A DNA stretch of 64,000 bases from Alistipes montrealensis (GTDB lineage: Bacteria > Bacteroidota > Bacteroidia > Bacteroidales > Rikenellaceae). This document shows, piece after piece, positions 4,090-19,845 of the stretch (positions are counted from its first letter, which is position 1; the number at the start of each line of letters is the position of its first letter). The DNA lies in assembly GCF_018362775.1 (NCBI RefSeq), contig NZ_JAGYXY010000005.1, positions 1 to 64,000 on the forward strand, read 5' to 3'. Position numbers and translations under genes: made by a program. The notes under the pieces were generated by a model, which worked only from the letters and a program-made list of their open reading frames with translations, was not told where the DNA came from and did no database searches.

Positions 4090-4096
4090 TAAATCA

Positions 4097-4795: not shown

Positions 4796-4799
4796 ATAC

Positions 4800-5975
4800 A
4801 TGAATCAAATCATCCATAAATCCAATAGTGTGTTGACAATATTATCTGTTATTTTGATAGTGTTGATGACAAGATATATGTCTTATGCGATGTATAATAT
4901 GTGGATGTTTTACGATGATAATCTTAGCGCGCAAATGTCTTCAAGAACCTTATCCATATGTTTAATTTTTCTAATGCTTGGCATTTGTATTTATGGAAGG
5001 AAATATTTGGGTTTGACACCAGTAGGTAGATCTGTATTGAGCTTTTTTATATATATATCCATTATAGCTTTTTTCTATTTATTGTTTTATAATTCATCCA
5101 TTACAACTATAACAACGAGGGTTGGATTATTGATGCTACCCATTTTTTCATTTTTTTCATTTTATATTTTGTCTAAAAGTAAGGTAGATAAAAGAATTTT
5201 GAATATTCTGTTTGCATTCTTTTTCATCTCCGTGGTAGTAGATTACTTTAATCAATTATATTCGAATATTTTACTTTTAGATAGAAACATCAATGTTGTA
5301 TATTACATTGTTATAGCATTCCCAATTATACTATTTTTGAATAAGAAACCCATTAGCATTGTTTCTTTTCTCATAGTTTCATATGCTGTTTTATTAAGTG
5401 GGAAACGTGGAGGCGTCGTAGCGCTGGCTTTGGGGCTTATTGCGTATATATTGTTTGCCCAAAAGAAAACTAAGTATTTATTTTATATCGCAGCAACAAC
5501 GCTTATGGTTGTGTTCGCATTTAATAATATACAAATAAGCAATAGGACTCTTAATAGATTTGATACTGCAGATATAACTTCTGGCCGATCTAACATTTAC
5601 AAAGATGTTCTTGAAAATTATATTGAGTCCAATGTTTTAGCTTTGATTGTTGGAAATGGATATGATGCTGTAGCCAAAACAACATCAGAGGGAATGACTG
5701 CCCATAATGATTTTTTAGAAATTTTATATGACTATGGATTAATCGGACTTATCTTGTTTATATCCCTCCATGTTGCGTTTATAAAGAAAATTCTTAGAAT
5801 GCATAGGGCCGGCAACGATTATCTATCCGTGGCCATCTTCTTATACTCCATATTTGCGGTTTTTTCTATGGTAAGTCATGTTGTGATTTATCCGTATTGT
5901 TTCGTCTTGACAGCAATTCTAGGATATTTAGATGGTATTAACTCACAGCAGAACAGTACAGTTTTCATAAAGTAA
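4800..5975 (+). CDS. Wzy-type O-antigen/capsule polymerase
   Basis: The 391-residue membrane protein has about ten hydrophobic spans and a large hydrophilic loop between residues 255 and 305 (GRSNIYKDV, HNDFLEILYDYGLIG). The SGKRGG motif near residue 200 and the HNDFLExLYDYGLIG motif are typical of the O-antigen polymerase/ligase (Wzy_C) superfamily. It should join repeat units in the periplasm after Wzx export. A WaaL ligase belongs to the same superfamily and cannot be ruled out by sequence. Its place among wzx, acyltransferase and glycosyltransferase genes favours Wzy. Confidence 0.82.
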   Translation: MNQIIHKSNSVLTILSVILIVLMTRYMSYAMYNMWMFYDDNLSAQMSSRTLSICLIFLMLGICIYGRKYLGLTPVGRSVLSFFIYISIIAFFYLLFYNSSITTITTRVGLLMLPIFSFFSFYILSKSKVDKRILNILFAFFFISVVVDYFNQLYSNILLLDRNINVVYYIVIAFPIILFLNKKPISIVSFLIVSYAVLLSGKRGGVVALALGLIAYILFAQKKTKYLFYIAATTLMVVFAFNNIQISNRTLNRFDTADITSGRSNIYKDVLENYIESNVLALIVGNGYDAVAKTTSEGMTAHNDFLEILYDYGLIGLILFISLHVAFIKKILRMHRAGNDYLSVAIFLYSIFAVFSMVSHVVIYPYCFVLTAILGYLDGINSQQNSTVFIK

Positions 5976-6013
5976 CGAGATATAGACTTAATTAATATAA
6001 ATTAAGAATTAGA

Positions 6014-7231
6014 ATGAAAATAGGCATTATTACTCACCATTTTGCATCAAATTTTGGTGCTAATATTCAAACGATGTCTACTATTGAATATATAAAGAAG
6101 GCTGGGCATACGCCGATTATTGTCAATTGGACAAATAACACGTTAGTTGCTGACTATAAGAAATCCATACCGAACAGTCAATATATAGAGCATAAAGTTT
6201 TTGCAGATAATTACTATCCTCTTTCAGAAATATGTGTCTCAAAAGAAGATATGGCACGTGTGATAGAAAAGGAAGGCATAGAAGCGATAATAATAGGAAG
6301 TGACGCCGTAGTTCAACATCATCCATTCATTACACGAATAGCTTTCCCGACAAGACGAGTGATATCGTTCCATAAATTTACAGAAGATCGGCTCTTTCCT
6401 AATTTCTTTTGGGGAGACTTTTTGCCTTACTTAAAGAAGAAAATACCTATGGCATACATGTCAGTTTCTTGTCAAAATTCGCCTTATCATTATATAGTAG
6501 GCAAGACAAGGAGATTAATGAGAGATGCATGCTCTAAATTCAATTTTATATCTGTTAGAGATTCGTGGACAAAAAAAATGTTTGTTCACCTAAATCCTGT
6601 ATATGAATCTATACGTATTACACCTGACCCTGTTTTTGCATTGAATAATAATGCAGGCAAACTTCTTCATGATAGGGAGACTATCTTAAAAAAATTTAAT
6701 CTCCCTGAGAAATATTTCTTAATATCCTTTTTCAAAGGAGATAAAGAATATACAAAATGGGTTCGAGATTTTGCTACACTTGTAAAGCAAGATGGCACAG
6801 AACCGTATATGTTTCCATTCCCCAACGGGACCTTTGATATGCCTGGTATTAAAAAGATAGATATCCCTTTATCTCCAATCGATTGGTATTGTCTTATAAA
6901 ATATTCTTCAGGTTTTGTAGGCAGAAACATGCATCCTATCGTTGTTTGTCTTCACAATCAGGTTCCATTTTTCAGTTTTGATCAATATGGAACTAAAATA
7001 TTAAATTCTATTTGTGTTCAATCCAGCAGTAAAATATATGACATTTTGTCTCGCGCTAATCTGTTAGAATACCGCGCCACATCTACTGGTCTGTTTCAAC
7101 AACGTCCGACTCCCAATGAGGTGTATAAGAAAATTGGAACTTTTGATGTAGAACAATGTAAAGTATTCACAGAACGACAATACAACGCATATTTGGAAAT
7201 GATGAAAGCTATTCTCGCATCATTCAGATAG
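6014..7231 (+). CDS. Polysaccharide pyruvyl transferase family protein
   Basis: The 405-residue cytoplasmic protein begins MKIGIITHHFASNFGANIQT, typical of the WcaK/CsaB-like polysaccharide pyruvyltransferase family (N-terminal GT-B half). It keeps AIIIGSDAVVQHH near residue 95 and FISVRDSWTKK near 180, the family's xxGSDxVWN and SVRExxS positions. It would transfer pyruvate from phosphoenolpyruvate to a sugar as a ketal, adding negative charge to the polymer. Several Bacteroidota members are uncharacterised, so the exact donor is unproven. It follows Wzy after a short AT-rich gap. Confidence 0.8.
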   Translation: MKIGIITHHFASNFGANIQTMSTIEYIKKAGHTPIIVNWTNNTLVADYKKSIPNSQYIEHKVFADNYYPLSEICVSKEDMARVIEKEGIEAIIIGSDAVVQHHPFITRIAFPTRRVISFHKFTEDRLFPNFFWGDFLPYLKKKIPMAYMSVSCQNSPYHYIVGKTRRLMRDACSKFNFISVRDSWTKKMFVHLNPVYESIRITPDPVFALNNNAGKLLHDRETILKKFNLPEKYFLISFFKGDKEYTKWVRDFATLVKQDGTEPYMFPFPNGTFDMPGIKKIDIPLSPIDWYCLIKYSSGFVGRNMHPIVVCLHNQVPFFSFDQYGTKILNSICVQSSSKIYDILSRANLLEYRATSTGLFQQRPTPNEVYKKIGTFDVEQCKVFTERQYNAYLEMMKAILASFR

Positions 7232-7238
7232 GGTGTGT

Positions 7239-8291
7239 ATGAAAAAAGTGTTATATATAGATATATTATCCCCATCTGGCCATAAGAACTACAATGAAGG
7301 TATTCTAAGAATACTATCTCGTTCTTATCAAGTGGATGTGTGCATGAGAAAAGATTTGCGCCAAAGAATCAATAACAATTATTATAATAACTGTTATGAC
7401 CTGAATGAACGTCTGTTTCGCGATATAATTGCGTCTAAGATTTCTTCAAGGTTTTTTATTGGTGTTTTGTGGAGAATCAACTTATTCAAATGGATCTTAT
7501 CTACATATCGTAAAATCATAAAATCATATGATATCATTTTCTTCAGTTCTGCTGAGCCATTGAGCATTTCTATAGCTTCCTTGATAACAACATCGCCGTT
7601 CTCATTTGTCGACCATGGAATATGCAAGGTAACCACATCTCGCTCTATAAGGTTTTATTACAAGTATCTATTGTCTTGTAGAGCAAATGTGTGCGTTATG
7701 GAACCTTTCATCAAAGAAAAACTATCAAGATATGGGATAAGCAATGTTTCTGTAGTTTATCATCCTTTACCAATTATAACTGTAGAGCAAAAAAAACAAC
7801 GTGATATCCTTACAATTTTTGCTCCCTCTGGGGGAAATTGCCCAAACTTTATTAGTCAACTGATAACTGAATACCAAAAGATTCCAAATGGAGTTAAAAT
7901 AGTGATTCGAAGTTCCTCTGTATCGTTTAACAACGACAGACTGGAGGTTTACAATAAGACGTTAGACGGTTCCTCTTATAAAAAAATCTTTAGTACATCG
8001 GATGTGATTTTATTACCTTATGGACCTATCTATAATTATAGGACCAGTGCACTTTTATTCGAGGCTCTATGCTATAAAAAGTTGGTTTTTATACTTGGCA
8101 ATAATACACTGACTCATTATGCGTTTAAATACCCTTCGGTCGTTAAGAGTTTTAAAGCAATAGATGACTTAATGCTCTTAGCCTCTAATATAGAATATGT
8201 TGCAGATGATGAGTTTTCAAAAATTAAATCCGATTATTCAGACGATGTAATATTGCAACAACTTAATTGTATCTCGTCTTATGGGAAATAA
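7239..8291 (+). CDS. Glycosyltransferase, GT-B fold (GT4-like)
   Basis: A 350-residue protein. I chose the ATG at 7239 (MKKVLYID) over the in-frame GTG at 7233. The N-terminal half is divergent. The C-terminal half has DVILLPYGPIYNYRTSALLFEALCYKK near residues 255-280, which occupies the place of the donor-binding E-x7-E region of GT4 enzymes. No specific sugar can be named. The gene begins 7 bp after the pyruvyltransferase and its end overlaps the next glycosyltransferase by 11 bp, which suggests coupled translation. Confidence 0.68.
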   Translation: MKKVLYIDILSPSGHKNYNEGILRILSRSYQVDVCMRKDLRQRINNNYYNNCYDLNERLFRDIIASKISSRFFIGVLWRINLFKWILSTYRKIIKSYDIIFFSSAEPLSISIASLITTSPFSFVDHGICKVTTSRSIRFYYKYLLSCRANVCVMEPFIKEKLSRYGISNVSVVYHPLPIITVEQKKQRDILTIFAPSGGNCPNFISQLITEYQKIPNGVKIVIRSSSVSFNNDRLEVYNKTLDGSSYKKIFSTSDVILLPYGPIYNYRTSALLFEALCYKKLVFILGNNTLTHYAFKYPSVVKSFKAIDDLMLLASNIEYVADDEFSKIKSDYSDDVILQQLNCISSYGK

Positions 8292-9489
8292 AAAAGTAAT
8301 CATAATTCATCCAGATAGGCAACACTCTTTACAAACGGCAAAGGCATTACAAGATGCAGGATATTTACATAAGTACATAACCGCTGTATATTTAAAGGAG
8401 CATTCGCTTTCGTCTTTATTCTCTTCTATTGCTCCATCTGGTATAAAAAGAAAATTTCTTAAACATAAGGTTGAAGGTCTTGATGATGATAAGGTAATTT
8501 TGGTCTGTGAACTCAGAATGCTCATTTTGTCAATTATCTCATTATTTTTGCCAACTTCTGTTACCTTCTTCATAAGAAAAAAATTGTTACATACTTTTAA
8601 TAAAAAGTGTGCTAAAATATGCCACGAACAAGACTTTGACATATTATTTAGTTTCGATACTTTGAGTGGAGATTATTATAAAACCTTAAAAGAGAGAGGG
8701 GTCAAGCTTGTTTTAGATATGTCTGCACCTTGTTATAAAGCTATGTATGATTCGTACTTAAAGGATGTAAACAAACATCTAGAGCAGTCATTCGTTTTAA
8801 AACATTTCCTTCAAGGGCCAAAAGCGAAGATGTGTCTTGAAAATTGTGAGAAAGAATTGAGAACATATGATTATTTTGTAGTAGCCTCTACCTATACAAA
8901 GGACACACTGCTTATAAATGGTATTAATGAAGGCCAAATAATCATTGTTCCTTATGGTGTTATGCAACCAAAGAGTTTAGAAAAACGACCTAATGGCAAT
9001 TTTACCTGCACATATGTAGGTAATGTTTCTCAACAAAAAGGATGTCATTATATCTTTAGAATCGCCAAAGAATATTCTAATATAACTTTTAACCTTATCG
9101 GTAATTTCGACAATAGTTACATAGAAATCCCATCTAACTGTATATTGCACGGATATTTAGGGTTTGATAATATCGGAAAAATATTAACCTCTTCAGATTT
9201 GTTCCTTTTCCTGTCTTTATCAGATGGTTTTGGTTTCGCAGCTGCTGAAGCTATGGCTTATGGTGTCCCTGTTGTTTGCTCACAAAATTCAGGTATTAGA
9301 GATGTTGTTAAAGATTGTGGATGGATTATTCCGCCTGATGATACGGATGCTTTAAGAAACATATTATGTTGGAGTTTAGAGCATCGAAATGAATTGACGA
9401 AAAAAGGGAAGGAATCACAACAAAGTTTGACAAACCTTACTTGGGGAAATTATAGAAATACGTTGATCTCTTTCTTTGACACGTTGTAA
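8281..9489 (+). CDS. Glycosyltransferase family 4
   Basis: The 402-residue cytoplasmic or membrane-associated protein has a GT-B layout. The N-terminal acceptor domain begins KKVIIIHPDRQHS. The C-terminal GT1/GT4 domain is recognisable from TCTYVGNVSQQKGCHYIF (about residues 243-260), and the donor-binding signature SDGFGFAAAEAMAYGVPVV carries both conserved glutamates of the EX7E region. It probably adds one sugar of the repeat unit on undecaprenyl pyrophosphate. The start overlaps the previous gene. A TTG 13 bases before its end is in frame with the next gene but is not the likely start. Confidence 0.85.
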   Translation: MGNKKVIIIHPDRQHSLQTAKALQDAGYLHKYITAVYLKEHSLSSLFSSIAPSGIKRKFLKHKVEGLDDDKVILVCELRMLILSIISLFLPTSVTFFIRKKLLHTFNKKCAKICHEQDFDILFSFDTLSGDYYKTLKERGVKLVLDMSAPCYKAMYDSYLKDVNKHLEQSFVLKHFLQGPKAKMCLENCEKELRTYDYFVVASTYTKDTLLINGINEGQIIIVPYGVMQPKSLEKRPNGNFTCTYVGNVSQQKGCHYIFRIAKEYSNITFNLIGNFDNSYIEIPSNCILHGYLGFDNIGKILTSSDLFLFLSLSDGFGFAAAEAMAYGVPVVCSQNSGIRDVVKDCGWIIPPDDTDALRNILCWSLEHRNELTKKGKESQQSLTNLTWGNYRNTLISFFDTL

Positions 9490-9502
9490 TAAAAAATATG
9501 TT

Positions 9503-10729
9503 ATGAAAGCAGTGCGCGAACTGGCTGAAATGAAGAATGATGACAGTATGATGCCGATAACTCCTCATATCAAAAAAATAATCGTAAACACCATATCAAC
9601 AAAAAAATATGCTGGTGGTACATTTCAGATAGCGTATAATTTCATGTTGAAGACATTGGAAAATCCGGATGTGGAGTGGTATTACTTCGTTTCGAAGGAT
9701 TTGGATGATATACTTGGAGATAAGTTTAAAGATCTACTTGGACAACATTACTTCTCGTTCCCAACGCAGCCTGATTTCAAGCATTCTTATATGATGGTAA
9801 AAAAGAAATTACGCGAACTTGAGAAAAAAATACAGGCAGACCTAGTATACTCTATATCAGCTCCATCATATTTCAAATTCAAAGCAATCGAGGTGATGCG
9901 TTTTACGAATCCGTGGGTAACACATCCAAACAAATACTCATGGAGCACGTTGTCACTAAAGAATAAAATATGCTATTACCTCTACGGACTAAACCAAAGA
10001 AGAATGATGAAGGCTGTTCATCACTTCATTACTCAAACTGAAACATGCAAAGCTGGAATAATGAGAGTAACTGGTGTGCCTGAAAAGAATGTAAAGGTGG
10101 TGAATAATGTGCTACCTGCGATATTCAAAACTATAGACAAAACACCCTATCCTGTTGATAGTAATTGGATAGATGTGGCATGTATTGGCAATGCAACTCC
10201 CCACAAAAATTTTGACATTATACCAGAAGTGCTTAAAGAACTGAAGAATTTGGGTATGGACAATGTGAGATTTCATACTACAATTCCTGTTAGCACCTTG
10301 TTATTTACGATAAAAAAAAAGATTGAGAAAGAGGAACTGGCGGCCAACTGGGTGAACCATGGTCGTGTCTCTCAGAAAGAACTAGCGGAGGTGTATAAGC
10401 ATTGCCAATTTTGCTTCTTACCAACACTGCTTGAGGTGTTCTCAGCAAGTACGGTAGAAGCCATGTTCTTCAATCTACCTATCGTTGCAACACATTTCGA
10501 GTTTAACACCGAAGTTCTTGCAAATAGCTGTCTCTATTATGAACCCAAAAAGGCAAAGGATGCAGCCATGCAAATCGCAAAATTGGTAGGCAACAAGACT
10601 TTACAAGAAGATTTAAAATCAAAGATGCAGAAACGCCTTGAGGTGTATAGTAATTATGACACTCACTTCAAAACTATAAAGCAATTTCTAATTCAGGTAA
10701 TAGATAACAATTTCAGATCTGATAATTGA
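9503..10729 (+). CDS. Glycosyltransferase family 4
   Basis: A GT-B glycosyltransferase of 408 residues from the ATG at 9503. An upstream in-frame TTG at 9476 lies inside the previous gene, and ATGs at 9530 and 9548 are also possible. Evidence is IDVACIGNATPHKNFDIIPE (start of the donor domain) and FLPTLLEVFSASTVEAMFFN with PIVATHFEF, the EX7E-type motif. GGTFQIAYNFM near residue 38 is the glycine-rich acceptor loop. A run of nine A at 10312-10320 lies within a Lys-rich codon stretch. This is the last gene of the strongly AT-rich block; a transposase relic follows. Confidence 0.82.
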   Translation: MKAVRELAEMKNDDSMMPITPHIKKIIVNTISTKKYAGGTFQIAYNFMLKTLENPDVEWYYFVSKDLDDILGDKFKDLLGQHYFSFPTQPDFKHSYMMVKKKLRELEKKIQADLVYSISAPSYFKFKAIEVMRFTNPWVTHPNKYSWSTLSLKNKICYYLYGLNQRRMMKAVHHFITQTETCKAGIMRVTGVPEKNVKVVNNVLPAIFKTIDKTPYPVDSNWIDVACIGNATPHKNFDIIPEVLKELKNLGMDNVRFHTTIPVSTLLFTIKKKIEKEELAANWVNHGRVSQKELAEVYKHCQFCFLPTLLEVFSASTVEAMFFNLPIVATHFEFNTEVLANSCLYYEPKKAKDAAMQIAKLVGNKTLQEDLKSKMQKRLEVYSNYDTHFKTIKQFLIQVIDNNFRSDN

Positions 10730-10734
10730 CAACA

Positions 10735-10985
10735 TTATCGTCCCGAGAAAATTCACCATAGCAGTGCACTGCGATATAAACCAATCTGAGAACTTCTTGA
10801 ACGCAAATGGAGCAATCCACTTAAGACTCTCTTGTCAGAAATAAGCCCGGCAGAGCTATCAACCTCTCTCGTTTCAATATCTTCATAGACCATATCCTCC
10901 GCTCTTGTTACAAAGAAGTCATTGTTAAGATTAAAGTAACTCTATGGCACTGCTGTCAAAAGCATAGACATTTCGTCGAGGCCAA
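10735..10985 (-). mobile_element. Degenerate IS4-type transposase fragment
   Basis: The 497-bp gap at 10730-11226 holds no intact gene. On the minus strand, short open pieces resemble an IS4-family DDE transposase. VYAFDSSAIELL (about 10942-10978) matches the first catalytic Asp region (VYAFDSTTIDL). DFFVTRAEDMVYEDIETREV, followed by DSSAGLISD (about 10830-10920), matches the family's FFVTRAKxNMxYEV...STGLRxD segment. Stops and frame changes break it, and I could not define terminal inverted repeats. The rest of the gap (10986-11226) is AT-rich, includes a run of ten A at 11167-11176, and probably holds the promoter of the downstream block. No clear promoter match was found. Confidence 0.6.
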
Positions 10986-11226
10986 GTATAAGTTTCTGTC
11001 CCTTATACAGTTACTTAGCCTTAAATATCAAGATCTACATAATATTTCCCCTTTGTTCATAGCTCGCTTGATAGACCCTATATGCCTAATTGCATAACTA
11101 TGAGTTCTAATCGGAAACTCCATTACACTTACAATTAATTGCAAATCAAGCAGTTTAAACCCAATCAAAAAAAAAAGAATATTTATCCAGACAGCAATGA
11201 ATTGATAATTAAATAATAAAAATACT

Positions 11227-12300
11227 ATGTCAGTTTTTAAAGACAAAGTCCTGTTGATAACAGGTGGTACTGGCTCGTTTGGAAACGCAGTGCTTCGTCG
11301 CTTCCTTGACAGCGACATCAAAGAGATTCGTATTTTTTCGCGTGATGAGAAGAAGCAAGACGATATGCGTCATGCGTTGCAGAATCCAAAAGTAAAGTTC
11401 TACATCGGTAACGTGCGTAAGAAAACATCCGTAGATGTCGCGATGCGTGGTGTAGACTATGTTTTCGCAGCAGCAGCATTGAAGCAAGTGCCTTCATGTG
11501 AGTTCTTCCCAATGGAGGCAACAATGACCAACGTAATAGGTACTAGCAATGTTTTGACATCAGCAATTGAGCACGGGGTAAAGAACATAGTGGTACTCTC
11601 CACCGACAAAGCCGCATATCCTATCAACGCCATGGGGATCTCCAAGGCATTGATGGAAAAGGTGGCCATTGCCAAAGGACGTGAACTCAGCGAAGACTCA
11701 CAAACCACTATTTGCTGCACTCGTTATGGCAACGTTATGGCATCGCGCGGTTCCGTAATTCCTCTCTGGGTGGAGCAAATGATGGAAGGCAGGCCCATCA
11801 CTATCACAGACCCCAACATGACGCGCTTTATGATGACTTTGGACGATGCAGTAGACCTTGTAATCTATGCATTCACGCACGGACACAACGGAGACCTCTT
11901 TGTACAGAAAGCTCCGGCTGCAACACTTTCCACTCTCGCAGAGGCTTTGAAACAGATCTATTCGAAGATAGACCCCAAGTATGGGGACACCGAGGTAAAA
12001 GTTATCGGCACACGTCACGGCGAAAAGCTTTATGAAACGCTCGTAACACGCGAAGAGATGGCAAAAGCTATCGATATGGGTAACTATTATCGAATCCCCT
12101 GCGATAACCGTGATCTGAATTACGACAAGTTTTTTATTGAAGGAAATGAGGATGTATCTCGAATTGAGGACTACCATTCGCACAATACACACCGCCTTGA
12201 TGTTGAGGGTATGAAGGAACAACTTTTACGCTTGCGCTTTGTACGCGAAGACCTCGGACTAGAACCACGTGCAAAGTCTAAAGAGATACGAAGCGAATAG
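11227..12300 (+). CDS. capE: UDP-GlcNAc 4,6-dehydratase/5-epimerase (CapE/WbjB type)
   Basis: This 357-residue extended SDR carries the NAD(P)-binding motif GGTGSFG (residues 13-19). In place of the usual YxxxK it has Met136-x3-Lys140 in NAMGISKALMEK, the signature of the CapE/WbjB inverting dehydratases. STDKAAYPIN and YGNVMASRGSVIPLW also match. It turns UDP-GlcNAc into UDP-2-acetamido-2,6-dideoxy-4-keto sugars, the first step to UDP-L-FucNAc. The next two genes supply the remaining enzymes in order. The block beginning here is less AT-rich than the flippase-to-glycosyltransferase block, so it may have a separate history. Confidence 0.9.
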   Translation: MSVFKDKVLLITGGTGSFGNAVLRRFLDSDIKEIRIFSRDEKKQDDMRHALQNPKVKFYIGNVRKKTSVDVAMRGVDYVFAAAALKQVPSCEFFPMEATMTNVIGTSNVLTSAIEHGVKNIVVLSTDKAAYPINAMGISKALMEKVAIAKGRELSEDSQTTICCTRYGNVMASRGSVIPLWVEQMMEGRPITITDPNMTRFMMTLDDAVDLVIYAFTHGHNGDLFVQKAPAATLSTLAEALKQIYSKIDPKYGDTEVKVIGTRHGEKLYETLVTREEMAKAIDMGNYYRIPCDNRDLNYDKFFIEGNEDVSRIEDYHSHNTHRLDVEGMKEQLLRLRFVREDLGLEPRAKSKEIRSE

Positions 12301-12383
12301 ACCATTCTTTTATTCATGCATAGAGTCTTATGCTCTGCTGAAACATCTTCTTTATTTCTGCAAAATATTAGAAAATAAACATA

Positions 12384-13586
12384 ATGAAAATACTTGTAAC
12401 CGGAGCCAAAGGTTTTGTCGGTCGTAATCTTGTTGCGCAGTTGTGTAACATAAAAGATGGCAAGGCAAAATTTTATGGCGATGTAACAGTATTCGAGGTA
12501 TTTGAATACGACATCGATTCGACAACAGATGAATTGGATCGCTATTGTCGCGAAGCCGATTTTGTTTTCAACCTTGCAGGCGTAAATCGTCCTCAGAATC
12601 CGGAAGAGTTTATGCAAGGCAACTTTGGATTTGCTTCAACACTGCTTGCCTTTTTGAAGAAGCACGGCAACACTTGCCCCGTGATGATTTCTTCCTCTAT
12701 TCAAGCAACGCTTGTCGGCAGATATGCCGAGAGCGATTACGGTAAGAGCAAGAAAGCTGGCGAGGAACTTTTCTTCGACTATGGAAAAGAGAGCGGAGCA
12801 AAAGTACTTGTCTATCGTTTCCCTAACCTTTTCGGCAAATGGTGCAGACCAAACTACAATTCGGCAGTTGCAACATTCTGCAACAATATAGCCAATGATT
12901 TACCCATACAAGTTAATGACCGCTCTACACAACTTGAACTTCTCTATATTGATGACCTTGTAGATGAGATGATAGCCGCACTTACCGGCAATGAGCATCA
13001 CTGCGAATTTGACGGAGTGGATACCATACTGACAGCGGACGGACGCTACTGTGCCGTGCCGATTACTCATAAGGTTACACTGGGCGAAATCATTGACCTA
13101 TTGGACGATTTTATAAGCCAGCCACAGACATTGCTTATTCCGAGCATTCCTGCAAACTCATTTGCAAAGAAACTCTATTCAACCTATTTATCATATCTCC
13201 CCAAAGAGAAGGTAATTTTCCCATTGAAGATGCATGTGGATGATCGAGGCTGTTTTGCTGAACTTGTGAAAACCTTAGACAAGGGACAGGTAAGCATTAA
13301 TATCTCAAAGCCCGGAATTACGAAAGGACAACATTGGCACAACACAAAATGGGAGTTCTTCATAGTGGTTGCAGGCAAGGGTTTGATACAGCAACGCAAG
13401 GTGGGTACAAATGAGGTTCTCAACTTTGAGGTCAGCGGCGAGAGGATAGAGGCCGTACACACGCTTCCTGGATATACTCACAATATCATCAACCTCAGCG
13501 AAACCGAAAACCTCGTAACAGTGATGTACTGCAACGAATGCTTTAACCCTAATCATCCTGATACATTCTTTGAACCGGTAAAATAA
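12384..13586 (+). CDS. capF: Bifunctional epimerase/reductase with cupin domain (CapF/WbjC)
   Basis: A 400-residue two-domain protein. The N-terminal SDR domain (residues 1 to about 245) opens with VTGAKGFVGRNL, and YGKSKKAGEELF supplies the YxxxK. The C-terminal cupin (about 270-395) has GQHWHNTKWEFF and HTLPGYTHNI, the His/Glu zinc site of CapF. In Staphylococcus CapF, the cupin epimerises C3 of the 4-keto sugar from CapE and the SDR domain reduces it to UDP-6-deoxy-L-TalNAc. Length and layout match the family. The gene follows capE after an 83-bp gap with no obvious feature and precedes capG by 13 bp. Confidence 0.92.
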   Translation: MKILVTGAKGFVGRNLVAQLCNIKDGKAKFYGDVTVFEVFEYDIDSTTDELDRYCREADFVFNLAGVNRPQNPEEFMQGNFGFASTLLAFLKKHGNTCPVMISSSIQATLVGRYAESDYGKSKKAGEELFFDYGKESGAKVLVYRFPNLFGKWCRPNYNSAVATFCNNIANDLPIQVNDRSTQLELLYIDDLVDEMIAALTGNEHHCEFDGVDTILTADGRYCAVPITHKVTLGEIIDLLDDFISQPQTLLIPSIPANSFAKKLYSTYLSYLPKEKVIFPLKMHVDDRGCFAELVKTLDKGQVSINISKPGITKGQHWHNTKWEFFIVVAGKGLIQQRKVGTNEVLNFEVSGERIEAVHTLPGYTHNIINLSETENLVTVMYCNECFNPNHPDTFFEPVK

Positions 13587-13599
13587 AACTGAGATAAAA

Positions 13600-14793
13600 A
13601 TGGATACAAAAATAAAAACCAATCACTCGGATGTAAAGTTTGCCGATAACGGTAAATTGAAACTTCTTATAATCGTTGGCACACGTCCTGAGATTATACG
13701 CCTTGCGGCAGTGATAACCAAATGTCGCAAGTATTTCGATACTATTCTCGCGCACACAGGTCAGAACTACGACTACAACCTAAACGGAGTGTTCTTCAAA
13801 GATCTCAAACTTGGCACCCCCGAAGTGTATATGGATGCTATGGGCGATGATTTGGGCGCAACTGTAGGTAATATCATAAATTGCTCATATAAGTTGATGA
13901 CCCAGATTAAGCCCGATGCACTGCTTATTTTAGGCGATACCAACTCTTGTCTGAGCGCCATTGCGGCAAAGCGTCTCCATATTCCAATTTTCCATATGGA
14001 AGCTGGCAATCGTTGCAAGGACGAGTGTCTACCAGAGGAAACAAACCGTCGTATCGTGGACATCATATCAGATGTAAACCTTGCTTATAGTGAGCATGCC
14101 CGCCGCTATCTGGAAGAATGCGGACTGCCCAAAGAACGCACCTATGTTACAGGTTCACCGATGGCAGAAGTATTACACGCCAACCTTGCAGAGATTGAGG
14201 CAAGCGACATCCATGACCGTCTTGGATTGAAAAAAGGCAAGTATATTCTTCTTTCAGCACACCGCGAAGAGAACATAGACTGCGAAAAGAACTTTCTTTC
14301 GCTGTTTAACGCCATCAATGCCATGGCAGGGAAATACGACATGCCTATTCTTTATAGCTGCCACCCGAGAAGCCGCAAACGTTTGGCATCAAGCGGTTTT
14401 CAACTTGACAGACGAGTTATCCAACACGAACCTCTTGGTTTTCACGACTACAACTGTTTGCAAATGAATGCATATACTGTAATCTCAGACAGCGGTACAT
14501 TGCCTGAGGAGAGTTCGTTCTTCATCAGTGTCGGTCATCCTTTCCCTGCCGTCTGTATTCGCACCTCAACCGAACGCCCCGAGGCTCTCGACAAAGCCTG
14601 CTTTGTACTCGCAGGCATTGACGAAAAATCCCTCTTGCAGGCAGTAGACACAGCTGTAGACCTCAACAATGACAACGCCCATGGCATCCCCGTCCCTAAC
14701 TATACCGATGAGAATGTCAGCACTAAGGTTGTGAAACTCATTCAGAGTTATACCGGAGTAGTTAATAAAATGGTCTGGAGGAAGGAACTTTAA
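13600..14793 (+). CDS. capG: UDP-N-acetyl-L-talosamine 2-epimerase (CapG/WbjD), UDP-L-FucNAc forming
   Basis: The 397-residue protein belongs to the non-hydrolysing UDP-GlcNAc 2-epimerase family. It has GTRPEIIRLAAV near residue 27, HTGQNYDYNLNGVFF near 52, HMEAGNRCKDECLPEETNRR near 130 and SDSGTLPEESS near 297, all typical of the family. The position after capE and capF makes the C2 epimerisation of UDP-6-deoxy-L-TalNAc to UDP-L-FucNAc the natural assignment, rather than UDP-ManNAc synthesis. The 30-odd residue lead before the GTRPE motif includes a Lys-rich start. The next gene, a WbuB-like glycosyltransferase, probably consumes the product. Confidence 0.9.
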   Translation: MDTKIKTNHSDVKFADNGKLKLLIIVGTRPEIIRLAAVITKCRKYFDTILAHTGQNYDYNLNGVFFKDLKLGTPEVYMDAMGDDLGATVGNIINCSYKLMTQIKPDALLILGDTNSCLSAIAAKRLHIPIFHMEAGNRCKDECLPEETNRRIVDIISDVNLAYSEHARRYLEECGLPKERTYVTGSPMAEVLHANLAEIEASDIHDRLGLKKGKYILLSAHREENIDCEKNFLSLFNAINAMAGKYDMPILYSCHPRSRKRLASSGFQLDRRVIQHEPLGFHDYNCLQMNAYTVISDSGTLPEESSFFISVGHPFPAVCIRTSTERPEALDKACFVLAGIDEKSLLQAVDTAVDLNNDNAHGIPVPNYTDENVSTKVVKLIQSYTGVVNKMVWRKEL

Positions 14794-14804
14794 TGTTGCT
14801 TTAA

Positions 14805-16010
14805 ATGAATATCCTTTTTTTGACATTGTCTTGTTTACATGATTTGAATCAGCGGGGCATATATTCCGACTTAATGAGAAAGTTTATTAAGGACGGACAT
14901 AACGTATATATCGTGGTTCCTTTTGAACGTCGCATGAAGCGTAAAACGGAACTCTTTGAGTCGGTCGGTGCTCATATTCTTGGCGTTAAAACTCTTAATA
15001 TTCAAAAAACGAATGTTGTCGAGAAAGGAATAGGTACAATATTGTTGGAACAACAATATATGACAGCTATTCGGCGTCATTTGAAGGATATTCATTTTGA
15101 TTTGGTCCTTTATTCTACTCCTCCAATCACCTTTAATAAAATAATCGGATGGGCTAAGAATAAGTATAATGCCATGACTTATCTGCTTTTAAAGGACATC
15201 TTTCCGCAGAATGCAGTGGACTTAGGAATGTTTTCAAAATCAAGCTTAATATATAAGTTATTCAGAGCAAAGGAACGTAAACTCTATGCGTTGTCTGACT
15301 ATATCGGATGTATGTCTCCGGCCAATGTGGAATATGTCTTAAAACATAACCCTTCAGTTAATCCTGCATATGTTGAGGTTTGTCCAAATAGCGTGGAGCT
15401 ATCTAATAAAACTGCATCTGTGGATGCAACGGAAATCAAAAATAAGTACGGAATACCGACTGACAAGAACATTTGTATTTACGGCGGAAATCTTGGCAAA
15501 CCGCAGGGAATTGATTTCTTAATTGATACTATCAATAGTAATGAGAAAAGAAGCAATGCTTTCTTTTTGATTGCAGGTAATGGAACAGAATTTAATCGTT
15601 TAAAAAATTGGTTTACGCAGAATAAACCTTGTAATGCCAAATTAATCAAAACATTACCAAAACCGGAATATGATTGCTTAATGCGTTCCGCTGATGTGGG
15701 ATTAATTTTCCTTGATAGACGTTTTACTATTCCCAACTATCCTTCCCGACTGCTTTCCTATTTAGAAAACAAGATTCCAATAATGATGGCTACGGATGCA
15801 AATACGGATATAGGCACAATAGCCGAAACTAACGGATATGGTCTTTGGACTGAGAGTGGTAATATTGAGGAATTTGATAAGAAACTGGATTCAATCCTTG
15901 CTAATCAAGCAATTCGAGTTGAAATGGGCAATCGTGGTTATAAATTCCTAACAGAGAATTATACCATAGATTATACATCAAATACCATAATGTCTCATTT
16001 TGAAAAATAG
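14805..16010 (+). CDS. Glycosyltransferase, WbuB-like (probable L-FucNAc transferase)
   Basis: The 401-residue GT4-family protein begins MNILFLTLSCLHDLNQRGIY, like the WbuB/Cap5L-type enzymes usually found right after the FucNAc genes. Supporting segments are LVLYSTPPITFNKIIG, LLLKDIFPQNAVDLGMF (family form LRDIFPQ) and ICIYGGNLGKPQGIDFLI at the start of the donor domain. FLDRRFTIPNYPSRLLSYLE lies where GT4 enzymes bind the donor nucleotide. The transfer of L-FucNAc is inferred from context. The gene lies 11 bp after capG and 8 bp before the initiating sugar transferase. Confidence 0.82.
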   Translation: MNILFLTLSCLHDLNQRGIYSDLMRKFIKDGHNVYIVVPFERRMKRKTELFESVGAHILGVKTLNIQKTNVVEKGIGTILLEQQYMTAIRRHLKDIHFDLVLYSTPPITFNKIIGWAKNKYNAMTYLLLKDIFPQNAVDLGMFSKSSLIYKLFRAKERKLYALSDYIGCMSPANVEYVLKHNPSVNPAYVEVCPNSVELSNKTASVDATEIKNKYGIPTDKNICIYGGNLGKPQGIDFLIDTINSNEKRSNAFFLIAGNGTEFNRLKNWFTQNKPCNAKLIKTLPKPEYDCLMRSADVGLIFLDRRFTIPNYPSRLLSYLENKIPIMMATDANTDIGTIAETNGYGLWTESGNIEEFDKKLDSILANQAIRVEMGNRGYKFLTENYTIDYTSNTIMSHFEK

Positions 16011-16018
16011 CATTCATT

Positions 16019-17563
16019 ATGTACAAATATTTCGTCAAACGCCTACTCGATTTTATAATAGCATTTTGCACACTTGCTTTTATTTGGCCAATTCTACTAA
16101 TTATTACAATCTGGCTTCATTTCGCCAATAAAAAATCTGGCGCATTTTTCTTCCAAGAACGTCCCGGCAAAGATGGTAAAATATTTAAGGTCATCAAGTT
16201 CAAGAGCATGACGGATGAATGTGATGCAGAAGGAAATTTGCTGCCGGATAGTGAAAGAATTACCACAGTAGGGAAGTTTGTACGCGCCACAAGCATTGAC
16301 GAACTCCCTCAGCTCATCAATGTCTTGAAAGGCGATATGGCATTAATCGGGCCGAGACCATTGTTGGTAAAATATTTTCCCTATTACACGCAGAGGGAAC
16401 AATTACGACATACCGTAAGACCCGGAATAACTGGTTGGGCGCAAGTGAACGGAAGGAACAATTTACGTTGGGATGATAGATTGGAGTGCGATGCATGGTA
16501 TGTGGAACATTGCTCCTTTATGCTTGACCTAAAGATTGTCTATAAGACCATTATGAATGTAGTTACCCAGAAGGATATTGCTCTAGTGGTAACTACTCCC
16601 GATTTAGATGATATTCGTCGGAAAGAGGTAATGATCTATAATTTAAAAAATAGCAACGCTCCAATAATCATACAAAACATCATTATAGAAGATTTGCCTA
16701 TCAAACTTGTTCGCGATGACCTTTTCCCGTCTGTCGGCGGCGGCAATAAAGGACGCAAGGCCGTGGAATACGAAAAGGAACTGAAGGAACTCGACTATAA
16801 CGCCATTGTGACCACAGGTGGCATTCAGAGCAATCACAACCGTGCAATGGCTCTGCTTGCAGCGAAGAACGGTTGGAAGTGTCATTTGGTTTATCACGGC
16901 ACGGAGGAACGCTTCAATGCAGAGAACGGCAATGCGCTGTTAGTGCGCTGCACCAAAGCCACGAAGGAATTTGTGGAAGCAAGTTGCATCTCGGAAGCGA
17001 TGAACAATGCAATGGCAGCTTACAAAAAAGAAGGGCTGAAGCCATATTATGTTACAGGCGGTGGTCATGATATGTCGGGTGGCAGAGCCTACATGAAAGC
17101 CATTCAGCAAATGTATGCTTATGGAAAACTATATAACTACAAGCCCGACTACATTTTTCACGCTTCAGGCACAGGTTCTACACAAGCCGGCATTTTAGTG
17201 GGCTTGGAATCGGTTGGCTGGGGCGATGTTAAAGTGATCGGCATCTCTGTGGCGCGTCAGCAGGAAAGAGGCAAACAGGTGGTGACGGAATTTGCCAACA
17301 AATTGGCAGAGCACCAAGGAATCAATGCGGACTTTACAGACAGGGTTCACTTTGTGACAGACTACCTTTTCGGAGGCTATGAACAGTTCTCTCCCGAGAT
17401 GAAGGATTTCTTGGATTATGCGATGCAGGAGACGGGCATTATCTTCGATACAACTTATTCGGGCAAGGCTTTCTACGGCATGTACGACTACGTGAAACGC
17501 AACGGTATTAAAGATAATATCTTGTTCTGGCATACTGGAGGATTAATGAATATCCAAAAATAA
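16019..17563 (+). CDS. Fusion: initiating sugar-phosphate transferase + PLP enzyme (ACC deaminase/D-cysteine desulfhydrase family)
   Basis: One 514-residue open frame holds two enzymes. Residues 1-195 are a polyprenyl-phosphate sugar-1-phosphate transferase (PglC/WcaJ family). It has an N-terminal membrane segment, FFQERPGKDGKIFKVIKFKS, SIDELPQLINVLKGDMALIG and the GPRPL motif. Residues 205-514 are a complete fold-type II PLP enzyme: RDDL, GGGNKGRK with the PLP lysine at 244, QSNHNR, ASGTGSTQAG and HTGG, as in ACC deaminase and D-cysteine desulfhydrase. The first domain would start repeat-unit assembly at the membrane; the second acts on an amino acid. An in-frame Met205 with a purine-rich Shine-Dalgarno sequence could also release the PLP enzyme alone. 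The ATP-grasp and aminotransferase genes follow. Confidence 0.82.
   Translation: MYKYFVKRLLDFIIAFCTLAFIWPILLIITIWLHFANKKSGAFFFQERPGKDGKIFKVIKFKSMTDECDAEGNLLPDSERITTVGKFVRATSIDELPQLINVLKGDMALIGPRPLLVKYFPYYTQREQLRHTVRPGITGWAQVNGRNNLRWDDRLECDAWYVEHCSFMLDLKIVYKTIMNVVTQKDIALVVTTPDLDDIRRKEVMIYNLKNSNAPIIIQNIIIEDLPIKLVRDDLFPSVGGGNKGRKAVEYEKELKELDYNAIVTTGGIQSNHNRAMALLAAKNGWKCHLVYHGTEERFNAENGNALLVRCTKATKEFVEASCISEAMNNAMAAYKKEGLKPYYVTGGGHDMSGGRAYMKAIQQMYAYGKLYNYKPDYIFHASGTGSTQAGILVGLESVGWGDVKVIGISVARQQERGKQVVTEFANKLAEHQGINADFTDRVHFVTDYLFGGYEQFSPEMKDFLDYAMQETGIIFDTTYSGKAFYGMYDYVKRNGIKDNILFWHTGGLMNIQK
16621..16633 (+). promoter_or_regulatory. Possible internal ribosome-binding site and start for the PLP domain
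   Basis: The sequence gaaagaggtaatg places an AGAGG motif 3-4 bases before an in-frame ATG (codon 205) at the exact boundary between the two domains. The ta-atg arrangement resembles a gene overlap. The sugar transferase frame has no stop here, so both a fused and a separate PLP protein could be made. Bacteroidota use Shine-Dalgarno sites weakly, so this is suggestive only. Confidence 0.4.
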
Positions 17564-17585
17564 CACAACAATAAAACAGACTCAT

Positions 17586-18596
17586 ATGAACATCCTTTTT
17601 ACGTGCGCCGGACGTCGCACTTACCTATTGAAGTATTTCAAGGAGAATCTGTCTGCTGGAGATAAAATTTTAGCAACTGATATGCAACTGTCTGCGCCGG
17701 CATTGCAGGTGGCTGACATCAAGGTGCAGGTTCCCGCAGTCTACGCTCCCGACTATGTGAGTCGAACACTGAACATCTGCCGGGAATACAACGTGGATGT
17801 TCTGATTTCTCTAAATGACCTTGAACTGCCCATCTTGGCTGAGCGAAAAGCGGAATTTGAAGAACTCGGCGTGAAGGTAATTGTTTCAAGCCCGGAAGTG
17901 ATTGACATCTGCTTTGACAAATACAAGACAGCTCAGTGGATTGAGGCCCTTGGATTATCATCTCCAAAAACATATGTTTGCCTTGCAGATGCAAAAGAAG
18001 CTCTCGCTAAAGGCGAAATATCATTCCCTATCTTCATGAAACCTCGTTGGGGCTCTGGTTCTATAGGATTGGAGACCATCGCTGATATAGACGAGTTAGA
18101 TATTTATTACAATCTCTTAATGAAGAAGATTAAAAAGACAATTCTTGCTACGGCGTCAGTGGGTAATGAGTATATTATGATTCAGGAAAAACTTATAGGT
18201 TCAGAATTCGGTCTCGATGTAATGAATGATCTTGAGGGTAATAATGTAGCTGTATCTGTGAAACAAAAACTTGCAATGCGTGCAGGTGAAACCGATAAGG
18301 CAATGACCGTAAATCTTTCAGAAGTTAGAGAAATTGGTAAGAAAGTGGGTGAAAACCTTAAGCATATCGGTAATCTCGATGTAGATATAATGCAACGAGC
18401 TAATGGTGATTATTGTGTGCTGGAATTAAACCCTCGTTTTGGAGGTGGTTTTCCATTCTCCTATGAGGCTGGCGTGAATATGCCAAAGGCAATAATAGAG
18501 TGGGTTAAGGGTAATAATGTTGATCCTGCAATTCTGCAACCTATATATGGGAAAATGTTTTCAAAGAATGACTATTTAATGGAGATCAGTCTCTAA
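17586..18596 (+). CDS. ATP-grasp ligase (CarB/PylC-like)
   Basis: The 336-residue cytoplasmic protein has a pre-ATP-grasp Rossmann-like domain (MNILFTCAGRRTYLLKYF) and an ATP-grasp domain from about residue 110. The nucleotide-binding segment is FPIFMKPRWGSGSIG, and the metal/ATP segment ends VLELNPRFGGGFPFS. It resembles the carbamoyl-phosphate-synthase-large-subunit-like ligases seen in surface polysaccharide loci. The family joins a carboxylate to an amine through an acyl phosphate. With a PLP amino-acid enzyme before it and a 4-aminosugar aminotransferase after it, attachment of an amino acid to a 4-amino sugar is a reasonable inference. The substrate is not shown by sequence. It lies 22 bp after the fusion gene and 4 bp before the aminotransferase. 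Confidence 0.78.
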   Translation: MNILFTCAGRRTYLLKYFKENLSAGDKILATDMQLSAPALQVADIKVQVPAVYAPDYVSRTLNICREYNVDVLISLNDLELPILAERKAEFEELGVKVIVSSPEVIDICFDKYKTAQWIEALGLSSPKTYVCLADAKEALAKGEISFPIFMKPRWGSGSIGLETIADIDELDIYYNLLMKKIKKTILATASVGNEYIMIQEKLIGSEFGLDVMNDLEGNNVAVSVKQKLAMRAGETDKAMTVNLSEVREIGKKVGENLKHIGNLDVDIMQRANGDYCVLELNPRFGGGFPFSYEAGVNMPKAIIEWVKGNNVDPAILQPIYGKMFSKNDYLMEISL

Positions 18597-18600
18597 ATAT

Positions 18601-19845
18601 ATGAGTAGAAATCGTATTTACCTCTGCCTGGCTCATATGTCGGGCAAGGAGCAACAATTTATCAAGGAGGCATTCGATACAAACTGGGTAGTTCCCTTGG
18701 GTCCGAATGTCAATGCTTTCGAGGAGGAATTGAAACAATTCGTTAGCGGCAACAAAGAGGTTGTCGCACTCGCATCCGGCACTGCCGCCGTGCATTTGGC
18801 TTTGCTGGCTTGCGGAGTAGGATCTGGCGATGAGGTAATCGTACAGAGCTTTACGTTCTGCGCTTCATCGCACCCTATTACTTATCTTAGAGCGACGCCC
18901 GTATTCATTGATTCTGAAAAGGATACTTGGAATATGGATCCACAACTGCTTGAAAAGGCTATCAAGGAACGTATTGTCAAGACCGGCAAGAAGCCTAAAG
19001 CTATCGTTCCCGTAGCACTTTACGGCATGCCTTACAAAATTGACGAGATAATGGAGATAGCCAATCGTTATGACATTCCCGTAATCGAAGATGCTGCCGA
19101 GGGCTTCGGTTCGAAATATGATGGCAAAGTACTTGGTACATTTGGCAAGTATGGAGTTTTGTCCTTCAATGGCAATAAGATGATTACTACCTCCGGTGGC
19201 GGAGCCCTCATTTGCTCAAATCCGGATGATAAGAACACTATCATGTGGTACGCTACCCAAGCGCGTGAAGCTTATCCATATTATCAACATGAGGTTATCG
19301 GTTACAATTATCGTATATCAAATATCTGTGCAGGTATTGGTCGTGGTCAAATGACTGTCGTCCAACAGCACATTGATCACCACAAGCATGTACAAGCGCT
19401 TTATGAGGATTTGTTGGCTGATGTTCCCGGCATAACTGTCAATAAAGCCCCGTCCGGAAAATTCGATAGCAACTATTGGCTCTGCACGATAACCATTGAC
19501 GAAAACCTAAAGGTAAAAGGACAAGAGAAGGCATACGCAGTTGCTATTACCAATGCTGTCGGCGGCACCGCCGGAGTTATTCATACAGGTGGTGGTGTTC
19601 ATACCGATTGCGAACCTAATGCCAATATTGAGGCTATGCGGATAGCACTTGATACTGCAGGTATCGAAGCTCGTCCCGTATGGAAACCTATGCATAAGCA
19701 ACCTGTGTACAAGAATGCACCAGCTTATGTGAATGGCGTATCAGAGTCTATTTTCAAAGTCGGCATGTGTCTGCCGGCAGGTCCTTATGTAACAGATGAT
19801 GATGTCAAGTATATTGTTGAGCAAATCAAAGCAAATATCATATAA
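18601..19845 (+). CDS. DegT/DnrJ/EryC1 aminotransferase, PglE-like (UDP-4-amino-4,6-dideoxy sugar forming)
   Basis: The 414-residue protein is a type I-fold PLP sugar aminotransferase. It has ALASGTAAVHLALL near residue 57, VIEDAAEGFGSKYDG near 161, and LSFNGNKMITTSGGG with the PLP lysine at 193. The SFNGNK form is the one seen in PglE/LegC bacillosamine-type enzymes, which aminate UDP-4-keto-6-deoxy-GlcNAc with glutamate as donor. No PglD acetyltransferase or PglF-type retaining dehydratase is visible in the window. The ATP-grasp gene takes the place where the N-acyltransferase would stand. This is the last gene of the locus, and an intrinsic terminator follows 150 bp later. Confidence 0.87.
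   Translation: MSRNRIYLCLAHMSGKEQQFIKEAFDTNWVVPLGPNVNAFEEELKQFVSGNKEVVALASGTAAVHLALLACGVGSGDEVIVQSFTFCASSHPITYLRATPVFIDSEKDTWNMDPQLLEKAIKERIVKTGKKPKAIVPVALYGMPYKIDEIMEIANRYDIPVIEDAAEGFGSKYDGKVLGTFGKYGVLSFNGNKMITTSGGGALICSNPDDKNTIMWYATQAREAYPYYQHEVIGYNYRISNICAGIGRGQMTVVQQHIDHHKHVQALYEDLLADVPGITVNKAPSGKFDSNYWLCTITIDENLKVKGQEKAYAVAITNAVGGTAGVIHTGGGVHTDCEPNANIEAMRIALDTAGIEARPVWKPMHKQPVYKNAPAYVNGVSESIFKVGMCLPAGPYVTDDDVKYIVEQIKANII

Follow-up and report, generated by a model that had tools for sequence, protein, structure and literature searches.

What stands in for PglD in a capsular polysaccharide locus that encodes PglC- and PglE-like proteins? The question is raised by a stretch of 64,000 nucleotides from Alistipes montrealensis (positions 1 to 64,000 of contig NZ_JAGYXY010000005.1, hereafter the window), in which an uninterrupted open reading frame of 514 codons (16019-17563, + strand) codes for a PglC-type transferase together with a fold-type II pyridoxal phosphate (PLP) enzyme. 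Genes for an ATP-grasp ligase (17586-18596, +) and a PglE/LegC-like sugar 4-aminotransferase (18601-19845, +) follow after short gaps. Our answer, which we are about as ready to accept as to doubt, is that an exchangeable cassette, made up of the PLP enzyme and the ATP-grasp ligase, lies between PglC and PglE and determines which acyl group the initiating sugar carries on its 4-amino nitrogen.

Contents of the slot between PglC and the aminotransferase

Residues 1-204 of the frame (16019-16630, +) are a monotopic phosphoglycosyl transferase (PGT) domain of the PglC type. The Bac_transf core (PF02397) is full-length, with residues 7-182 aligned to positions 1-178 of 179 (E = 2.4e-60). The remainder (16631-17563, +) was assigned as a D-cysteine-desulfhydrase-like enzyme of a clade with a GGGH motif, using PF00291 (PALP; residues 232-507, E = 7.7e-24), alignments to PDB chains, clade residues and a tree. 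The motifs SIDELPQ, GPRPL, IQSNHNR and HTGG and the lysine K244 were confirmed. Two domains with such scores do not share one frame by chance, and the sequence-only reading of this stretch, which had seen a PglC-type transferase and a complete PLP enzyme in a single frame, was borne out. The genome contig contains the identical frame, but stems from the same assembly and is not an independent confirmation.

Pfam and NCBIfam matches, a PDB match and a tree assigned the ligase to the PRK12767-3 type, with a PylC-like N-domain. It scored 405.7 bits against NF009404 (PRK12767.1-3; cut-off 316), a family whose name, "carbamoyl phosphate synthase-like", is uninformative about the substrate. PF13535 also matches, and among solved chains 2pn1 is the closest in sequence. 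The aminotransferase is DegT/LegC-like (PF01041, 7.2e-91) and falls short of the curated LegC score (TIGR04181, 344 bits, cut-off 420). Its closest solved chains by sequence are 1o61 and 4ztc, which we take to be Campylobacter jejuni PglE. The earlier naming of both downstream genes was thus upheld.

No PglD match was found in the window between the fusion and the aminotransferase. We surveyed this slot in 20 stretches, made up of the 19 PglC loci with the highest scores among other genomes of the same genus and a second locus of the A. montrealensis genome itself. PglC and an aminotransferase were both present in 11 stretches; PglD lay between them in nine, and nothing in two (L023 and the second A. 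montrealensis locus, L002). Over the fetched stretch, the same-genus locus L013 consists of fnlC and genes for a glycosyltransferase, PglC, PglD and an aminotransferase, which is the operon of the window with PglD replacing the PLP enzyme and the ATP-grasp ligase. Bacteroides faecichinchillae (L005) also has the order PglC-PglD-aminotransferase. The earlier proposal that the ligase occupies the place of PglD therefore stands, and the PLP enzyme shares this place.

A second Bacteroidales polysaccharide cassette, in which an ATP-grasp gene adjoins a gene for a HAD-type hydrolase, was found in L103, L104, L105 and L106. The order is PglC, ATP-grasp, HAD, aminotransferase in L106, and the same with a glycosyltransferase after PglC in L103; L105 has PglC, and the 4.4-kb contig L104 shows neither PglC nor an aminotransferase. 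Between the same flanks the slot is thus filled by PglD, by ATP-grasp plus HAD, by GNAT plus PLP enzyme plus ATP-grasp, by PLP enzyme plus ATP-grasp, or by nothing, so that its contents are exchanged. Since the ATP-grasp ligase occurs with a PLP enzyme, with a HAD hydrolase or with PglD (L020, see below), it is common to several cassettes in which the neighbouring enzyme varies.

The PLP enzyme and its ATP-grasp partner

Within its family, the PLP domain was found in one of 268 genomes, that of A. montrealensis. A draw of 393 genomes from the order gave 31 with a PLP match at E <= 1e-20, and close matches (at least 40% identity) in A. montrealensis, G621, G461 and G306. The phylum draw (296 genomes) gave 27 genomes with a match, those in A. 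montrealensis and G919 being close. Draws from further families at E <= 1e-40 added G1078 (2 of 178 genomes matched) and G1143, with two loci, and G1166 (3 of 92 matched); the family of G461, with three genomes, held no PLP match besides G461. L004 (G949, Muribaculaceae) came from a scan of genome contigs and was the only one of five loci there with the PLP part. The resulting set comprises 10 loci in 9 genomes, including the window.

An ATP-grasp gene accompanies the PLP gene in all ten loci, with one gene in between in L004 and clipped by the contig end in L132. PglC is found in eight, a PaaK-like ligase in six, a GNAT in five, and an aminotransferase in the fetched stretch in six. L088 (G461) corresponds to the window operon, with PglC and the PLP enzyme encoded separately and a GNAT added: fnl genes, glycosyltransferase, PglC, GNAT, PLP, ATP-grasp, aminotransferase and a PglF-like protein. 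L126 (G1078) has fnl genes, a glycosyltransferase, a PaaK-like ligase, PglC, a GNAT running into the PLP enzyme with a frame break, ATP-grasp and an aminotransferase. A GNAT::PLP fusion follows PglC in L004 and L087 (G621), where it precedes PaaK-like, ATP-grasp and aminotransferase genes and ATP-grasp alone, respectively; the window has PglC::PLP, ATP-grasp and aminotransferase. In L089 (G306) a different GNAT runs into the PLP enzyme with a frame break, followed by ATP-grasp and a PaaK-like ligase, and a DegT aminotransferase lies about 5 kb off. The broken PLP frames of L089 and L126 are possible assembly errors. L090 (G919) encodes a DegT aminotransferase, a formyltransferase, the PLP enzyme and ATP-grasp, and L130, L131 (both G1143) and L132 (G1166) a PaaK-like ligase, PglC, the PLP enzyme and ATP-grasp.

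Outside this clade the partnership was not seen, although the view was limited to short flanks. Distant PLP matches (36% identity or less; 54 of 56 fetched) had an ATP-grasp gene in none of 54 flanks, which extended about 1.5 kb a side or less. Searched from the other side, the ATP-grasp gave matches at E <= 1e-30 in 8 of the 393 genomes of the order draw, and among the genomes listed the four with E <= 1e-70 were the same four that carry the PLP clade. The ten PLP-linked ATP-grasps were split from four HAD-linked ones with 100/100 support; L102 formed a long branch, and its placement is unsure. The PLP and ATP-grasp trees share their deep branching, with L089 beside L090 and L130-L132 together, while the window and L087 are placed differently in the two trees (supports 80 to 97). 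The pair is thus conserved in ten of ten loci, as the earlier pairing of the two enzymes would have it, and we found no description of it among the listed matches in open-access literature.

The PLP enzyme had been labelled a member of the ACC (1-aminocyclopropane-1-carboxylate) deaminase family. The assignment to this fold was correct, but ACC deaminase function was rejected on the diagnostic residues. Glu295 and Leu322 mark ACC deaminase (excerpt of PMC4048297), and alignment to 1rqx places S481 and T506 at these two diagnostic positions. D-cysteine desulfhydrase is characterized by the PLP lysine, Ser78, Tyr287, Thr288 (T or S) and Thr315 (excerpt of PMC3344862), and alignment to solved structures showed all of the corresponding residues: K244, S271, Y480, S481 (Ser for Thr288, the same as in 7ysk) and T506. 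The NCBIfam scores of the PLP part were nevertheless far below every cut-off, including those of the curated D-cysteine desulfhydrase families (CuyA, 176.7 versus 450; TIGR01275, 148.6 versus 289.4).

Among clade members with the relevant segment, K244 is conserved in 8 of 8, S271 and N272 in 9 of 9, and Y454, Y480 and T506 in 10 of 10. H350, in the GGGH motif, is present in all ten members, whereas 51 of 53 other enzymes have a serine there; alignment places this position in the PLP-lining segment of StDCyD (residues 158-161). The clade also has T385 in common, compared with serine in 49 of the 53 others, and N511, a position at which the others most often have A, G, E or I. The ten enzymes form one group in the tree against these 53 (SH-aLRT 99), which are the usable open reading frames from the 54 distant stretches read. 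Judged by sequence, the GGGH clade is a group of its own among fold-type II PLP enzymes. Structure models were poor (ATP-grasp, pLDDT 41.4 from 2 sequences; fusion, pLDDT 53.5 from 6 sequences). Automatic annotation would likely call this subfamily ACC deaminase or D-cysteine desulfhydrase.

The aminotransferases of two relatives carry in-frame insertions. In L126 (6037-7725, -) a PglE-like aminotransferase contains a complete DUF559 nuclease-like domain (PF04480, residues 317-422, 4.3e-33) bordered by PSPQGEG / CGEGRGG-type stretches, and the frame stays open; the insert resembles a mobile element that leaves the reading frame of its host gene intact. The homologous aminotransferase of L004 (7389-8717, +) has a different insertion of about 30 residues after approximately residue 50.

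The junction of the fused frame

A three-frame reading of the junction (16620-16634, +) showed an internal ATG (16631-16633) and, in the +1 frame, TAA at 16629-16631 and TGA at 16632-16634. The window has thus kept TAATGA (16629-16634), but out of frame as a stop for pglC. Its PglC can be aligned with that of L004 up to the final residues (LDDIRRK versus LDDERRN), indicating that the PglC in the fusion is complete. In L004, L088 and L126 the 3' end of pglC overlaps the next start codon as ATGA, and a change in length by a single nucleotide separates the fused state from this overlapping layout.

The PglC::PLP fusion was found in one of the ten loci. L004 and L087 instead fuse the PLP enzyme to the GNAT, and the PLP gene is separate in L088, L090, L130, L131 and L132. 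The occurrence in one locus and the distance of one nucleotide from the overlapping layout suggest that the fusion is probably incidental (a recent mutation) or a sequencing error. The genome collections used contain one genome per species, and the fusion was seen in one strain and one assembly. In Flavobacterium psychrophilum, the WfpB proteins are virtually identical save for distinct C-termini and lie beside differing R-group genes (excerpt of PMC6519341), which suggests that the 3' end of pglC is a usual swap point. By analogy, the junction in the window may have arisen by a swap at this end, and the position of the swap site most likely gave rise to the fusion as a side effect, without any functional need for it. 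Deletion of a GNAT gene was considered as another origin and weakened, because PglC overlaps the PLP gene by 8 nucleotides in L130 and L131, which lack a GNAT; in L132 the two genes abut or overlap, depending on the start codon. The sequence-only reading had taken the fusion for a link between chemistry and priming. This was not supported: among the ten loci, no relative is fused in this way, two carry GNAT::PLP, and the junction is a matter of one nucleotide.

A proposed route to the 4-N substituent and its closest known relatives

Further genes on the + strand precede the fusion. They code for a FnlA-like UDP-GlcNAc 4,6-dehydratase/5-epimerase (11227-12300; PF02719; TIGR04130, 548.4 bits, below the cut-off of 730), a FnlB/WbjC-like reductase (12384-13586; PF14667; NF047837, 347.6 bits, below 500), a FnlC/WecB-like 2-epimerase (13600-14793; TIGR00236, 212.8 bits, above 210.15) and a WcaI-like GT4-type glycosyltransferase (14805-16010; PF00534; NF007640, 86.6 bits, below 276). 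The FnlC-like protein alone reached its curated cut-off. The three fnl-type genes predict that the operon provides UDP-L-FucNAc besides a 4-amino sugar, and the WcaI-like protein is predicted to transfer L-FucNAc onto the primed sugar, an acceptor suggested by the parallel with F. psychrophilum. The remaining cluster (3541-10729) encodes a hexapeptide transferase, a Wzy-like protein, a polysaccharide pyruvyl transferase and glycosyltransferases. The G+C content is 31% in wzy, 35-47% in the measured genes over 9476-19845, and 59% in purH just outside.

In F. psychrophilum, R-group genes are swapped beside pglC-, pglE- and fnl-type genes, and the repeat contains L-FucNAc and Qui2NAc4NR (excerpt of PMC6519341). 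From this likeness, the most likely role of the cassette is to determine what the initiating sugar carries at N-4. Starting from the directly observed gene content, slot, pair conservation and PLP active-site residues, we infer the reactions that follow, their order and the aminoacyl nature of the group. The PglE-like enzyme would make a UDP-4-amino-6-deoxy sugar. The PLP enzyme would supply a small amino acid (probably) or a derived acid; by analogy with D-cysteine desulfhydrase, its step could be the abstraction of the C-alpha proton of an amino acid that is D-configured or beta-substituted. The ATP-grasp ligase would activate the carboxylate of this acid with ATP and form an amide at N-4 of the sugar. 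PglC would then load the decorated sugar-1-phosphate onto undecaprenyl phosphate, and the WcaI-like transferase would add L-FucNAc made by FnlA, FnlB and FnlC.

A more specific form of this route can be put forward tentatively. The GGGH PLP enzyme may make a dedicated, perhaps D-configured, amino acid that the ligase joins to the 4-amino sugar before PglC acts and that a GNAT or formyltransferase, where there is one, caps. This would be an undescribed Bacteroidota route to 4-N-aminoacyl (or N-acyl-aminoacyl) UDP-sugars. Natural 4-amino sugars (Qui4N, Fuc4N) with aminoacyl and N-acetyl-aminoacyl groups have been tabulated (excerpt of PMC10609480), and the GNAT::PLP fusions of L004 and L087 fit such products if the GNAT caps the amino acid. 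An aminoacyl product on the initiating sugar is also plausible by analogy with the type B flagellin of Clostridioides difficile.

Several observations weigh against the proposed cassette function. L020 (G018) groups PglC, PglD and an ATP-grasp gene (32% to that of the window), and the ligase therefore need not always replace PglD. The HAD hydrolase beside related ATP-grasps suggests that acids other than amino acids may be attached. An aminotransferase was not seen in the fetched stretches of four of the ten loci (L087, L131 and, on contigs of 5 and 7 kb, L130 and L132). The GNAT of L088 has its best match in PseH (77 bits, cut-off 93.1), which acetylates a sugar amine; such a GNAT could acylate the 4-amino group itself and leave the ligase a target elsewhere. 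A long PglF was not found in the A. montrealensis genome (13 contigs, 99.6% complete) at E <= 1e-25, so that the initiating sugar of this strain may differ from QuiNAc4N. Both of its PF02719 proteins are FnlA types, and its ten PF16363 matches include one clear 4,6-dehydratase, which is RmlB-like (L135); L139 and L140 matched no named family at the threshold applied, and the scan did not extend to L141 and L143. By comparison, a long PglF is present in nine of the ten other same-genus genomes behind the 11 stretches, with G068 as the exception. The short-chain dehydrogenase/reductase (SDR) encoded at 712-1770 was rejected as the missing 4,6-dehydratase on its epimerase-type SSS..YxxxK motif. 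A. montrealensis (L002/L091) and G068 (L023) each have a PglC plus PglE-like locus with an empty slot and no long PglF found, and may use another 4-keto sugar.

Other explanations were weighed as well. The pair may form an amide elsewhere, for example by joining an amino acid or amine to a uronic acid of the repeat unit, comparable to amidated glucuronic acid in capsules. ATP-grasp ligases can act on a sugar carboxylate, the SDR at 712-1770 may have a UDP-uronate role, and the PseH-like GNAT could already fill the 4-amino group; but the cassette takes precisely the place of PglD, with PglC on one side and PglE on the other, and PglC adjoins it in eight of ten loci, which makes this explanation unlikely. 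It is also quite unlikely that the cassette makes an acyl group other than an amino acid, with the PLP enzyme releasing, by elimination from an amino acid with a hydroxy or thio group, a keto acid that is used as such or reduced before ligation. Such a reaction would suit the D-cysteine desulfhydrase-type residues, and the replacement of the PLP enzyme by a HAD hydrolase fits variable acid suppliers. However, none of the ten loci showed a reductase separating the pair or immediately adjoining it, and the GNAT fused to the PLP enzyme in two intact loci fits a product that bears an amine.

Two further explanations concern the window itself, and we give little credence to either. The locus may be a decaying copy that, without the GNAT step and PglF, no longer makes the sugar. 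In favour of decay, its operon lacks a GNAT, a long PglF was not found in the genome, and frames are merged at the junction. All domains nevertheless give full-length family matches, the catalytic residues of the PLP enzyme are conserved, and L130-L132, from another family, likewise combine PglC, PLP and ATP-grasp without a GNAT. It is similarly improbable that the fusion is a functional bifunctional PGT, in which a membrane-tethered PLP domain passes its product to the ligase and PglC. Both domains are complete, and bifunctional monotopic PGTs (Bi-PGTs) such as Neisseria gonorrhoeae PglB are an already recognized class in the literature excerpts compared. Against this stand the other arrangements of the PLP gene in the relatives, the internal ATG at the very start of the PLP domain and the junction one nucleotide off the overlap layout.

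Many bacterial surface sugars bear amino-acid amides on an amino group. If the preferred reading of an exchangeable cassette is correct, it would allow structures to be predicted directly from genes in capsule typing, and would bear on how gut Bacteroidales vary their surface through exchanges at a single slot, the one between PglC and PglE.

Among known systems, the UDP-diNAcBac pathway of C. jejuni (PglC-PglD-PglE/PglF) is alike in its PglC and PglE homologues and its lipid-primed 4-amino sugar; here PglD acetyltransferase is replaced by the PLP enzyme and the ligase, and the long PglF was not found. The family of D-cysteine desulfhydrase, D-cysteate sulfo-lyase and ACC deaminase shares the fold type II and the K, S, Y, S/T and T residues. 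The clade of the window differs from it in H350 (GGGH), N511, the ATP-grasp neighbour in polysaccharide loci and the absence of E295/L322 of ACC deaminase. Bi-PGTs likewise join a PGT core and an extra enzyme domain in one frame, although the join in the window may be unselected. The C-terminal domain of N. gonorrhoeae PglB is an acetyltransferase by common description. An excerpt of PMC6133551 gives it as an aminotransferase domain, and the excerpts compared do not mention a fold-type II PLP partner for Bi-PGTs.

The nearest tested precedent that we found, judged by excerpts of PMC5207245 and PMC5207246, is the type B flagellin locus of C. difficile (CDR20291_0244-0247). Its wild-type glycan carries Fuc3N with a taurinyl-Ala-Gly amide, and mutants in 0245 and 0246 lack the terminal sugar. 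A DegT/FdtB-type aminotransferase, a PF13535 ATP-grasp and an amino-acid-type enzyme are clustered there as well, and mutants in the latter two lose the peptidylamido sugar. The locus differs in having an OCD-like enzyme, rather than a fold-type II PLP enzyme, and a FemAB-like acyltransferase; moreover, its Fuc3N ends a flagellin glycan and is not a PGT-primed initiating sugar.

The O-polysaccharide locus of F. psychrophilum (fnl, wfpA, wfpB, R-group genes, pglE and pglF), as far as the excerpt of PMC6519341 describes it, shares with the window the UDP-L-FucNAc genes, a FucNAc transferase (WbuB-like there), a PglC-like transferase whose C-terminus differs between strains, PglE and exchangeable 4-N genes. 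It has pglF, in contrast to the A. montrealensis genome, where no long form was found. Its R1 group is predicted from fatty-acid-type enzymes and a PglD-like acyltransferase, and the window has the PLP enzyme and the ATP-grasp ligase in that place. Exchangeable 4-N-acyl genes are thus already known in kind, and what is new here is the cassette of PLP enzyme and ATP-grasp ligase.

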